From: Sinorhizobium mexicanum
Lineage (GTDB): Bacteria > Pseudomonadota > Alphaproteobacteria > Rhizobiales > Rhizobiaceae
Reading direction: 5' to 3'
Length of the DNA stretch: 64,000 nucleotides
NCBI RefSeq assembly: GCF_013488225.1
Contig: NZ_CP041238.1
Location: 397,501 to 461,500 of the forward strand
Part shown: positions 10,991-16,115 of the stretch, in pieces
Numbering within the stretch: position 1 is the first letter of the stretch
How the letters are laid out: each line of letters begins with the position of its first letter
The notes under the pieces: generated by a model
Told to the model about the DNA's origin: nothing
The model's input: only the letters and a program-made list of their open reading frames with translations
The model's database searches: none
Program-made: the position numbers and the translations under genes

Positions 10991-11560
10991 TCAGAGCGAA
11001 AGCGGCCAGCGATCGACAATCCTGAATTCTCCCCGCCCTTTGCGCGTGTGGACAAGTGCGAAGCCCCGAACTGTCCATGCGATTGGCCTCGCGAGATCGA
11101 CATGCGGAGCTTTGCGGTCGCTGTAGAAAAGCGTCATATGCGGAATGACCTCACCCGATATATCCCGCAGGCCCGTGATTTCCCGGATTAACGCGTCGAA
11201 GCCCGGAACCGAGCTACCGCAGGTCAATATTCGCGGATACTGGCGAACATGGCCGACGCTGACAATGCGATCGAAACATAGGTGAAACCCGGCGGCTTTC
11301 GCGCGTGAACCGAGTTTGGCGGCAAACTCGTCGACTGCTTCCGATAACCCGCGGCCTTCGCGAACCTTGGCAAGCGACACATGCAGCCGGTCACGGTCAT
11401 AGATCTTTCCGGAAAGTCCATGTTCCTGCTGATCGCCGTGCGCAAGTTCCAACGCCTGTTCGGCTGCCTGCTTCTCCGGAAGAACAGCGAAGTAAAAGAC
11501 ATCGCCAGCTCGTGGCGGGGAGAAAGAGCCCAAGTTCAGAGAAAGCTGGTCCGAAGTCAT
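10991..11560 (-). CDS. 2'-5' RNA ligase / 2H phosphoesterase family protein
   Basis: 189 residues. The two HxS/T motifs that define the 2H phosphoesterase superfamily are both present: DRLHVSLAKV (about residue 60) and VIPHMTLFYS (about 140), spaced as in LigT/ThpR. These enzymes act on cyclic phosphates or form 2'-5' RNA links, and their role in the cell is poorly known. The gene is monocistronic with its own ATG. It is the last gene before the guaA-linked accessory patch. Confidence 0.85.
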   Translation of the reverse strand: MTSDQLSLNLGSFSPPRAGDVFYFAVLPEKQAAEQALELAHGDQQEHGLSGKIYDRDRLHVSLAKVREGRGLSEAVDEFAAKLGSRAKAAGFHLCFDRIVSVGHVRQYPRILTCGSSVPGFDALIREITGLRDISGEVIPHMTLFYSDRKAPHVDLARPIAWTVRGFALVHTRKGRGEFRIVDRWPLSL

Positions 11561-11715: not shown

Positions 11716-11742
11716 AAAAAGGGCGCGCCAAGACGTGCCCTT
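11716..11742 (-). terminator. Minus-strand intrinsic terminator, probably the original guaA terminator
   Basis: Stem AAGGGCGCG / CGTGCCCTT (9 bp, one mismatch), loop CCAAGA, followed on the minus strand by TTTTT (complement of 11716-11720). It lies about 35 bp beyond the guaA-like 3' end at 11777 and serves no intact minus-strand gene there. guaA itself, 2.8 kb away, has no comparable hairpin after its stop. Confidence 0.6.
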
Positions 11743-11776
11743 CACATATTCGCTTCATGGAAGACAGTGCGAATTC

Positions 11777-11800
11777 TTACTCCCACTCGATTGTTCTAAA
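11777..11800 (-). pseudogene. Displaced 3' end of guaA (attachment-site copy)
   Basis: Read on the minus strand, this codes R-T-I-E-W-E then TAA, matching the G-T-I-E-W-E-stop end of intact guaA at 14553. At the DNA level, ACTCCCACTCGAT is identical at 11779-11791 and 14555-14567, in the same orientation. The simplest reading is that an element integrated into the guaA 3' end, rebuilt the gene and pushed the old end here. Confidence 0.6.
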
Positions 11801-12077
11801 TCTAGTTAGACCATTGATATAGCTAGGTTTTTTATGCGTTGCCGCGCAAAAAGCCGACCCATGGGCCGTCAAAATGTACGGTTTTGATTTCAAAGGGAAA
11901 AACAGCACGAAAATTTTTTGTGCGGTTTCGGCATCTATCGAAGTCGATCGCCTTTCCGGACCCACTGACCGGCCAAAGACGCCCCTCAGGGGAGAGGGGG
12001 GCCCGCGTTCCGTGGCACCGGCCCGCAACCTTCAGAATATGATAGCCCGCGGCAGCCGGAGAAGGGAATCTGTGCTC

Positions 12078-12971
12078 TCAAACCAGCATCGACTGCTGGG
12101 CGAAGATACCCGCCATCGCACCTTGCGATGACGCCGTGGTGACCGAGGGCATGAGGGGATTCGCGAGGTCGCCGGCGGCATAGATGCCGGGCATGCTGGT
12201 TTCGCGGCGCTCGTCGACCTTGAGGGCGATGCCGAGCGGCGTATCGACCGTGGCGAGGCCCAGTGATTCATGCAGGCTTGCGGATGGCTTGTTGCGCGGA
12301 TGCGCGAACAGGATGTCGACCGCGACGTTGGGGCCGGTATCGAGATTGACGGTGGCGCTATGGCCCCCGTGATGGGCGATCTCGGTGATCCGGCCATCGA
12401 CGACAGGTATGTTGCGGCGCGCCAGATCGGCCCGGATATCGGGCGGAATGTCGTGACCATCTGCGAAGAGCGTCAACGTGTCGGTCCAATCGTGGAACAG
12501 CCTTACAGACTGGTGCGACTGCCGGCCGGACCAGACGAGGCCCCAATGCTGGCCGGCGACTTCAAAGCCGTCGCAATAGGGGCAGGGCACGATGGAGGTG
12601 CCCCAGCCTTCGGCAAAGCCCGGAACCTCAGGCATCTGGTCGGCTACGCCATAGCTCAGGATCAGGCGGCGCGCCCCAAGGCTTTCGCCATCGGCAGTGA
12701 GGACGGAGAAATCGTCGATGGCGCCGGAGATGCTGTCGGCCCGCGTACTGACCAGCCTGATCGTGGGATAGCGCGCTAGCTGCTGCCGCGCCTCAGCCAG
12801 GATTTCCAGCGGCGGCTTGTGGTCGTGGCCGAGCAGGCCATGCGAATGGCCAGCGAAGCGGTTGCGCGGCAGGCCGGTATCGAGAACGGTGACCTTGCGG
12901 CGGGCACGGCCGAGTTGCAGGGCGCCGGCGAGACCGGCAAAGCTGCCGCCGATGATTATGGCGTCATCCAT
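12078..12971 (-). CDS. Thioredoxin reductase-like NAD(P)/FAD-dependent oxidoreductase
   Basis: 297 residues from the ATG at 12971 (MDDAIIIGGSFAGLAGALQLG). The N-terminal FAD site GGSFAGLAG is intact, a CPYC redox pair sits in IVPCPYCDGFE (about residue 140), and the C-terminal FAD contact GIYAAGDLANP is present. This is the class II flavoprotein disulfide reductase fold. The second dinucleotide site reads LVWSGRQSHQS, which lacks the usual GGGxSA pattern, so NADPH use is doubtful. It overlaps a small upstream ORF by 8 bases and is divergent from a TetR regulator, its likely repressor. It lies inside the guaA-linked patch. Confidence 0.88.
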   Translation of the reverse strand: MDDAIIIGGSFAGLAGALQLGRARRKVTVLDTGLPRNRFAGHSHGLLGHDHKPPLEILAEARQQLARYPTIRLVSTRADSISGAIDDFSVLTADGESLGARRLILSYGVADQMPEVPGFAEGWGTSIVPCPYCDGFEVAGQHWGLVWSGRQSHQSVRLFHDWTDTLTLFADGHDIPPDIRADLARRNIPVVDGRITEIAHHGGHSATVNLDTGPNVAVDILFAHPRNKPSASLHESLGLATVDTPLGIALKVDERRETSMPGIYAAGDLANPLMPSVTTASSQGAMAGIFAQQSMLV

Positions 12972-13161
12972 GGTGATAAGCTCCGTGTTGTGGATGGAGG
13001 GGGTCGGGCTGGGCCTGGCACGCAATATCGTCCAGCGATACGCACTCGGGACGGGCAGCGAGCAGGGCTTCGGCATCGACGAGAAAGTCGCCCATCACTG
13101 TTTTGGCCGGCCGGACAATGCCGCATTCGATATCGCCGGGCGGCCCGGATTTGGAGGACAT
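12964..13161 (-). CDS. Small hypothetical protein, coupled to the oxidoreductase
   Basis: 65 residues from the ATG at 13161 (MSSKSGPPGDIECG), overlapping the oxidoreductase start by 8 bases. It lies directly downstream of the TetR-type palindrome at 13195-13210, where the operon's first gene should be. No motif, membrane segment or signal peptide is visible, and the product ends in a His-rich tail. It could be a real small protein, a leader that couples translation, or a remnant of a longer gene. No function assigned. Confidence 0.4.
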   Translation of the reverse strand: MSSKSGPPGDIECGIVRPAKTVMGDFLVDAEALLAARPECVSLDDIACQAQPDPLHPQHGAYHHG

Positions 13162-13194
13162 GGTTGAAACCTACCCAATGGCTTGTACATTTTA

Positions 13195-13210
13195 GATACT
13201 ACGTGGTATC
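13195..13210. promoter_or_regulatory. Palindromic operator between oxidoreductase and TetR genes
   Basis: GATACTACGTGGTATC is a 16-bp inverted repeat with one mismatched pair, flanked by TTTA and GTAA. It lies between the divergent transcription units, 34 bp from the small ORF start and about 42 bp from the TetR start. TetR dimers bind sites of this length. Binding by this TetR protein is inferred. Confidence 0.65.
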
Positions 13211-13251
13211 GTAATTCAAGAATTAGGATACTGTCAAGGACTGGAATTGTC

Positions 13252-13902
13252 GTGAGCGAAAATAGCCAGGGCCGGCGCGGCCGGCCCGCCAACGAGGCGC
13301 TTGGCCAAACGATCGTCGACGCCGCGCGCGAACTCTTTGTGGAATTGGGTTTTCAAGCGACGACATTGGACAAGGTCGCCCAGCGAGCGAAGATATCCAA
13401 GCTCAGCATCTATCGGCACTTCGAGAACAAGGAGGCGCTGTTCAGCGCGGCCATCGCGGCCGGCTGCCATCAGTTGTTTGCACCACAGACCCTTCTTGAA
13501 GGCGTCGACGGTTCGGTCGAAGATCAGCTCACGGCGGTGGGATCATTACTGCTTCGCACGCTGTTGAGCCCGGACGTCCGCAGTGTCGAAGCCATGGTCA
13601 TGGCCGACAGGACGAATCAAAAGTCGTTAAGCAAGCTCCATTACGAAGCCGGCCCCGCCCATGTCATCGTCCAAATCGAGGCCCTGTTGCGTCAGTTGCA
13701 CGCGAAGGCGGTTCTGAACGTGCCCGATCCTCTCCGGTCCGCCCGCTTGTTTGCCGCGCTTTTCAAAGGATCCGATCTCCTGATTATCGCACGCTTCGAT
13801 CAGGCGAGAGCAGAGGACGACAAAGAAATCGAATCCTATTGCCGATCGGCCGTCGCCATGTTCATCGCCGCGCACGGTGGCAACGACCACGCGGGCGGAT
13901 AA
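13252..13902 (+). CDS. TetR/AcrR family transcriptional regulator
   Basis: 216 residues from the GTG at 13252 (VSENSQGRRGRPANEAL), preceded by AGGA about 12 bases upstream. The longer frame from 13183 would include the operator. The N-terminal TetR helix-turn-helix is clear: TIVDAARELFVELGFQATTLDKVAQRAKISKLSIYRHF, in overlapping stretches from about residue 18 to 55. The C-terminal ligand domain is helical. It is divergent from the oxidoreductase and the probable repressor of that unit. The 3' end abuts the DUF6088-like remnant exactly, so the last residues may mark a recombination junction. Confidence 0.9.
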   Translation: MSENSQGRRGRPANEALGQTIVDAARELFVELGFQATTLDKVAQRAKISKLSIYRHFENKEALFSAAIAAGCHQLFAPQTLLEGVDGSVEDQLTAVGSLLLRTLLSPDVRSVEAMVMADRTNQKSLSKLHYEAGPAHVIVQIEALLRQLHAKAVLNVPDPLRSARLFAALFKGSDLLIIARFDQARAEDDKEIESYCRSAVAMFIAAHGGNDHAGG

Positions 13903-14125
13903 GCATTTGATTGCTCCCGGCAGCTTGGCCGGGACCGTCGTCCAGGCGCTTCGTCATATTGGGCCGGCGCGCGCGGCCGAGCTTGCACAGATCGCGGCAC
14001 CTCATCTTTCTCCCAACGATAAAAAGACGCTCGCATCTACCGCGATCCAAGCTCCCGCCTGGATGCGGTCGACGCTTCTCTCCATCGCAGATCCGGCAGC
14101 AGTCGGGACAACATTTGATCGGTGA
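13896..14125 (+). pseudogene. Truncated DUF6088-like (AbiEi-type) C-terminal fragment
   Basis: In the frame ending with TGA at 14123 the residues HLIAPGSLAGTVVQALRHIG, then LSPNDKKTLASTAIQAPAWM and RSTLLSIADPA, match my recollection of the C-terminal third of DUF6088 proteins, which are antitoxin-like relatives of AbiEi. The N-terminal winged-helix part is absent because the upstream DNA is the end of the TetR gene. A start at 13877 would give 82 residues, but it is a chance ATG in the TetR gene. I read it as a gene fragment left by recombination. The family link is from memory. Confidence 0.5.
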
Positions 14126-14213
14126 TGCGACGGTGCCATCCGACGATATGCGATCGGGTCCGGAACATCGATCGGTACCGCAGCCAAAGCTGAAACTATG
14201 TATGTCGATAACT

Positions 14214-14372
14214 AAAGTACCGTCAGCGCGGAAATGTCATGCTACGCGGCGTTTTCGTTATATATTTCAAAGCGTTGAAACACAGAAAAGTACCGTCAAA
14301 CCCAAAAAACGAATGACGGTACTTTTTAGAATGCTCTGTCGGATACGAAAAACACCGTCAAAAGTACCGTCA
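14214..14372. repeat. Arm-site-like repeats (AAAGTACCGTCA) next to guaA
   Basis: Exact AAAGTACCGTCA at 14214-14225, 14287-14298 and 14361-14372 in direct orientation, the inverted copy TGACGGTACTTT at 14314-14325, and a degenerate CACCGTCAA at 14353-14361. The surrounding 300 bp is AT-rich compared with the window. Such spaced direct and inverted copies beside an attachment core resemble tyrosine-integrase arm sites, or excisionase or plasmid-iteron sites. The stretch from here to the guaA stop (14373-14552) holds no gene I can see. Confidence 0.65.
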
Positions 14373-14552
14373 GAGTGATCTGCTACAAGCTGCGAGCCGC
14401 GCCAGGCGCTCCGATAAACTTAACGATTTCAATGGCTTGATAGATTTGTCAATTCCATTGATAATGTGCCCTGGCTAGCAGTCTGCCCTGCCCGCAAATC
14501 ATTATATTTTCTGCGAAATACTACGCTAGAGCCGCCTTGATCGCCGTTTCCC

Positions 14553-16115
<1,563 letters not shown>

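Follow-up and report, generated by a model that had tools for sequence, protein, structure and literature searches.

An integrase-free element behind guaA in Sinorhizobium mexicanum with ends like those of guaA-targeting integrase elements

The last codons of guaA occur twice on the same strand of a 64,000-nucleotide stretch of Sinorhizobium mexicanum DNA (hereafter the window; RefSeq assembly GCF_013488225.1, contig NZ_CP041238.1, positions 397,501 to 461,500), and the two copies start 2,776 bp apart. Islands without an integrase, as this segment appears to be, are usually filed as dead remnants. Is the segment a mobile element, and, if so, what could have moved it?

The guaA core and its empty sites

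The guaA gene (14553..16115, minus strand) is an intact open reading frame whose last codons form the apparent recombination core. A preliminary description of the window had reported the guaA terminus twice in the same orientation, and the 13-mer ACTCCCACTCGAT is indeed present exactly at 14555..14567 (the guaA-proximal att core, minus strand) and at 11779..11791 (the distal att core, minus strand, the copy following the element), with a wider match of 17 of 19 bases (11776-11794 versus 14552-14570). As also described there, the distal copy still ends in RTIEWE-stop (FRTIEWE with one more residue), within the open reading frame 11777-12028. ARAGORN found no tRNA in the window. The description had named frequent chance occurrence of the 13-bp match as an observation that would speak against an element, and for exact copies this is not the case: base composition predicts 0.0015 of them in the whole window on both strands, and no exact same-strand match arose when the 14.5-kb region downstream of guaA was put through 300 dinucleotide shuffles. 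With 2 mismatches, 1.44 chance matches are expected per window and at least 2 matches arose in 40 of 100 shuffles; thus, only the exactness of the 13-mer is informative on its own.

We compared this locus with the DNA downstream of guaA in 31 further genomes of the genus, in which GuaA is 94-99% identical at the protein level (100% to itself), and in one genome of another genus, taking 20 kb from each apart from two loci at contig ends that gave 7.1 and 11.6 kb; the genus sample comprised 33 genomes, including one (G008) without a full guaA. The preliminary description had proposed that relatives would carry an empty site, and such sites were found, in which guaA joins directly to the terminator and thpR DNA found past 11779 in S. 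mexicanum. In G003 and G009, the window sequence beyond 11779 follows guaA directly (82 and 81% identity, respectively, over 99 bp), with a terminator-like hairpin that in the window lies in the flank outside the element (11716..11743, minus strand) and then a flank gene that we take to be thpR (10991..11560, minus strand; 78% identity by tblastn). The sequence after guaA in G006 matches this DNA at 75%, and in G027 the match begins ~50 bp further on. G026 carries the element (94.3% identity over 2.5 kb) with a different flank, and that flank directly follows guaA in G013 (93% over 720 bp); the element of G002 has related ends and a different cargo, and its flank directly follows guaA in G001 and G024 (80-82% over ~700 bp). 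For the element of G005 and G031, a search of 5 loci found no empty site. Because homology begins at the core in all three empty-site pairs, the alignments indicate that elements enter or leave exactly at the guaA core. That 13-mer matches with 2 mismatches do occur by chance might suggest that no site-specific recombination took place and that the repeat arose by chance or when part of the guaA end was duplicated, but the repeat is exact and the core is the breakpoint in all three empty-site pairs, and we rejected this origin because these two results rule it out.

A 15-base core, which includes two distal-end bases, recurs downstream of guaA in 5 of the 32 genus genomes searched, counting S. 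mexicanum (G000, G002, G005, G026, and G031). This search covered the fetched downstream DNA at up to 2 mismatches with guaA's own copy set aside, and it gave no further site in the loci of the 32 genomes; one 3-mismatch match, in locus L059, was left out of the count.

End repeats, cargo, and the missing integrase

We use IntG here for a guaA-targeting DUF4102 tyrosine recombinase, presumably of the P4 type, a name that refers to the target and does not imply identity with published IntG. In three genomes of other genera (G323, G098, and G147), a 418-residue integrase starts ~0.3 kb behind guaA; the three proteins are 87-90% identical to each other and contain Pfam domains PF13356, PF22022, and PF00589, and Mesorhizobium proteins are among the 86-90% relatives of this integrase. 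The distal end of the window element has similar counterparts ~130, 65, and 81 kb further on, respectively, as read from the two end regions of each locus, each of which could hold more than one element. Across the family, 66 of 394 genomes have an IntG match at E up to 1e-60, with the top candidates per genome scored. Of the best 30 IntG loci, 28 stand just behind guaA, one (L313) follows the distal end of another element, and one (L318) stands behind neither. The preliminary description had proposed looking for a full integrase-bearing element beside guaA with the same repeats; such elements, with a distal end that matches as well, exist in other genera, and none was found in the genus itself (33 genomes). 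The L313 element (G403:C1:790067-794317) directly follows the distal end of its neighbor, and two IntG genes lie 35 kb apart in that genome. An IntG-like fragment (65% identity) closely follows a distal core in G141 (contig C161, positions 37147-37278 of L294+L280).

Near guaA, a repeat finder detected copies of TGACGGTAC in one direction at 14212-14227, 14285-14300, 14347-14362 (degenerate), and 14359-14374, and one inverted copy at 14314-14326. These repeats probably represent arm-type integrase sites. Their order in the window is an inverted repeat, then a repeat at +25, then one at +73, which matches the geometry of 21 of the best 30 IntG loci (inverted, direct at +26/27, direct at +71/72); at one mismatch, the other nine had two direct repeats alone (4 loci), a single repeat (1 locus), or none (4 loci). 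In G098, G147, and G323, the integrase gene begins directly after the last repeat. Because the same repeat order occurs at +25 and +73, the left end of the window element is, by sequence, an IntG-element end as far as the point where the integrase would begin. The distal end module (11792..11966, minus strand) is 93.7% identical in G026, and similar stretches occur in family genomes with and without IntG. The distal repeat that would be expected of IntG-type ends, ~220 bp ahead of the distal core, is kept in G026, 222 bp before the core, and is absent from the window copy and from the copies in G349 and G388, two genomes of another genus. The G349 copy also lacks ~80 bp beside its core, and the G388 copy lacks the whole left end. 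Because the distal repeat or parts of the ends are missing, the window, G349, and G388 copies may be impaired. Neither the arm-type repeats at 14212-14374 nor the missing distal repeat figured in the preliminary description.

Of the matches to the distal end that were listed, 11 were fetched, leaving out that of G319, which lies at a contig start; G134 and G399 have the distal core with no guaA in the DNA fetched, and the distal core is changed in G298 and partly changed in G147. A one-mismatch repeat search of the 394 family genomes gave matches in 6 genomes versus 1 control match. Two-mismatch matches in G017, G011, G020, and contig C3 of G000 were dropped, as 5 of 34 genomes matched versus 5 reversed-control matches, and G409 was dropped because its repeats have no guaA core nearby.

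Where IntG elements have the integrase gene, the middle of the window element is filled by a divergent gene pair. The first encodes a TetR-family regulator with an AefR-like C-terminal domain (13252..13902, plus strand, with a probable GTG start; PF00440 and PF14246 on the open reading frame 13183-13902), and the second encodes a thioredoxin-reductase-like flavoprotein (12078..12971, minus strand; PF07992 on the open reading frame 12078-13076); both frames were checked. Between them, we read a 16-base near-palindrome, GATACTACGTGGTATC (13195..13210), which is a possible operator, and the plain reading of the pair would be a redox enzyme under its own repressor. A third open reading frame in the segment, of 82 codons, matches no Pfam family, and there is no transfer gene among the three frames scanned. 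The TetR-oxidoreductase pair also occurs in several Rhizobiaceae genomes without element-end matches (for example, G015:C1:2021391-2023157), and this cargo may travel on its own.

The preliminary description had noted no integrase between the cores, and we reached the same result: S. mexicanum has nine PF00589 matches, none inside the element, and its two PF13356 matches both lie away from guaA. The closest match to IntG in this genome is 28% identical, and tblastn at E up to 0.01 detected no IntG remnant inside the element. No IntG was found in the 33 genomes of the genus sample, where the best long match was 33% and IntG-like fragments were 53-54% identical in G017 and 36% in G026. The G017 fragments (G017:C21:1779-2085) correspond to the C-terminal part of IntG, and one has an internal stop; the genus is otherwise without IntG. 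These absences are based on PF00589 searches in 11 genomes and on tblastn with three IntG proteins; a regular-expression scan of guaA flanks for tyrosine recombinases and two integrase query sets proved strict or insensitive and were not relied on, one set having missed the known second DUF4102 gene of S. mexicanum (L289). The window element has the guaA 3'-end core of an IntG-type element and lacks the integrase that an autonomous one would have, which also sets it apart from IMEs, elements with their own integrase and a relaxase or oriT.

We consider it probable that the 2,776-bp segment is a site-specific element, integrated and non-autonomous, with IntG-type ends, and that it was moved by IntG from another element. 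It would have kept the two ends of a guaA-targeting IntG-type (P4-type/DUF4102) element, with the TetR-oxidoreductase pair in place of the integrase and the rest. Entry would most likely have occurred when the element core recombined with the 3' end of guaA under catalysis by IntG from another element, acting either in trans or within a composite in tandem at guaA, and this helper element would have been lost or never have stayed. The segment might instead be one piece of a tripartite ICE, with its other parts at two further sites, as guaA is the reported site of Mesorhizobium ICEs and of IntG in their tripartite forms (PMC8627217, PMC9973854, PMC5882170). This origin is very improbable: tripartite ICEs combine IntG, IntS, and IntM in one genome and S. 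mexicanum has no IntG, the segment has only two recognizable genes, and element and cargo recur as a unit in other genomes.

Integrase-free elements at guaA in other genomes

In 13 genomes, a guaA core and a second core enclose DNA with no integrase found in it and with very different cargo; the additional elements were not part of the preliminary description. Besides the window element, single elements measure 3.4 kb in G002, 1.3 kb in G005 and G031, 3.5 kb in G026, 2.5 kb in G349, 2.6 kb in G388, 4.8 kb in G119, 2.1 kb in G339, 5.4 kb in G373, and 8.7 kb in G075. Pfam matches in the cargo include a PIN domain (G005), aldehyde dehydrogenase (G002), an AraC regulator with a dienelactone-hydrolase family protein (G119), YCII (G339), HSP20 with a PAS histidine kinase (G373), and caspase and WD40 domains (G075). 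Integrase absence rests on PF00589 for 8 of the 13 genomes (G000, G331, G140, G075, G349, G388, G119, and G339), on IntG tblastn and reading of open reading frames for G026, G002, G005, and G373, and on tblastn of the 20-kb locus alone for G031, so that other kinds of recombinase could be missed in these last five. The family sample includes 10 of the integrase-free hosts, and none of these belongs to the 66 genomes with IntG (top candidates per genome scored); the genus search found no IntG in G002, G026, or G031. Helper and element were thus never seen together, because neither the genus sample nor the sampled integrase-free hosts have IntG.

The copies in G349 and G388 bear on how the integrase-free form spread. 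The G349 element, at guaA, matches that of the window in two stretches, of 1,327 bp (93.0% identity) and 1,194 bp (92.2%), whereas guaA with its upstream neighbor is 81.1% identical, four other upstream stretches 68.6-76.2%, and the downstream gene 73.1%; the flanks differ and the internal junction is identical. Behind the oxidoreductase gene, the window and G349 share the same sequence, and an additional ~0.5 kb is present there in G026 and G388. The third copy, in G388, is 85-90% identical to that of the window, compared to 80.6% for guaA. The shared integrase-free structure, the identity above that of the surroundings, and the different flanks together indicate that the integrase-free form itself moved horizontally between genera. 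Between S. mexicanum and G026, the identity of the element does not exceed that of guaA, and this pair alone gives no sign of transfer.

These comparisons bear on the simplest alternative, plain decay in place, in which an IntG element lost its integrase and transfer genes and the remnant was inherited with the chromosome. Deletions are visible at the element ends, and the divergence between S. mexicanum and G026 is similar for the element and for guaA, as decay would predict, but the flanks of these two genomes differ, tblastn at E up to 0.01 found no IntG remnant in the element, and S. mexicanum and G349 share the integrase-free structure and internal junction at 92-93% identity versus 81% for guaA; we regard decay in place as unlikely. 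The preliminary description had left the choice between a decayed and a trans-mobilized element; its mobile-element reading stands, and plain decay is the weaker option because the integrase-free form occurs in another genus at an identity above that of the surrounding genes.

Two genomes have tandem arrays. G331 (G331:C51:14100-61166; L114, L116, and L234) has four cores and three units of 14-19 kb, and G140 (G140:C1:2971367-3039402; L112, L113, L237, and L238) has three cores and units of 49 and 19 kb, with no PF00589 match inside either array. By reading, two of the three G331 units carry sugar-transport and other catabolic genes, and catabolic operons are the cargo of these arrays where read. 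The tandem cores, the position of the L313 element behind another element's distal end, and reported tandem transfer of a CIME with an ICE (PMC5704250) are consistent with movement in cis only, in which the segment is carried when an adjoining IntG element at guaA excises as a composite; the window element and most others stand alone, however, and we hold this possible at somewhat below even chance. Movement in cis is a version of IntG-dependent mobilization by another element rather than its opposite, and the present data do not separate the two.

Relation to known systems

The proposed IntG-mobilized element is best compared with CIMEs, which lack integration and transfer genes and keep attL and attR (PMC5704250). 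The window element has exact cores on both sides, with empty sites in relatives, no integration or excision gene (the PF00589 and PF13356 matches of the genome lie elsewhere, and no IntG remnant was detected), and no transfer gene in its scanned frames, and tandem accretion occurs in relatives. In contrast to the CIME model, the integrase-free form itself crossed genera here, and related ends enclose exchanged cargo. By structure, the element fits a CIME, and transfer of its integrase-free form points beyond plain decay. Accretion is seen in G403 for elements other than the window's, and no IntG element carrying the window cargo was found, although the window ends are those of an IntG element.

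With the IntG elements, including tripartite ICEs, reported in Mesorhizobium (PMC8627217, PMC9973854, PMC5882170), the locus shares its guaA target and, in Rhizobiaceae, a DUF4102 integrase beside guaA; unlike them, the window element lacks an integrase, AlpA, or transfer gene. A convergent AlpA-family gene does lie behind the integrase in G098 and G323, in accord with the rdfG-intG convergence reported for an ICE (PMC5882170). Elsewhere, guaA is also described as a site of IMEs (PMC5704250). In Dehalococcoides, tandem islands at ssrA without an integration module were proposed to be cis-mobilizable (PMC3146451); they likewise stack at one conserved gene, but serine recombinases and ssrA are involved there, rather than a tyrosine recombinase and guaA. 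CALIN arrays are similar in being integrase-free cargo arrays that an integrase from elsewhere can move, and differ in consisting of attC cassettes, whereas attL/attR-type ends with arm repeats and much larger array units are found here (PMC11389934). A literature search at the level of titles and opening lines of abstracts turned up no description of elements at guaA in rhizobia that lack an integrase.

Recombination at guaA is of a known kind and well explained; the less usual feature is that the integrase-free unit itself was transferred and has relatives with exchanged cargo. More tentatively, and with the odds somewhat against it, guaA may serve in Rhizobiaceae as a portable cassette system, in which IntG end modules would surround cargo that is freely swapped, from sensor kinases and pairs of the regulator-enzyme or toxin-antitoxin-like kind to whole catabolic operons. 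These integrase-free units would circulate as satellites of IntG elements and stack in tandem, and solitary ones would be acted on in trans, so that a P4-type integrase would be used much as in an integron. The unit described here bears the mark of movement between genera and has ends readable as those of a common integrase family, which makes the mobilization of solitary att-flanked elements by other elements' integrases directly testable, and the guaA core together with TGACGGTAC repeats provides a signature for finding more such elements.

A related repeat pattern, TGACGGTAYTTYTGACGGTAT, occurs in at least 117 stretches (L117-L233) of public genomes from very different bacteria, some perhaps by chance. 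A strict script placed an integrase-like reading frame right after the pattern in 9 of the 117 stretches listed; by eye, more have an adjoining integrase and others lie near a guaA end or tRNA-like ends (uncounted). The pattern often adjoins DUF4102-type integrase genes and is a possible signature for the att sites of these enzymes.
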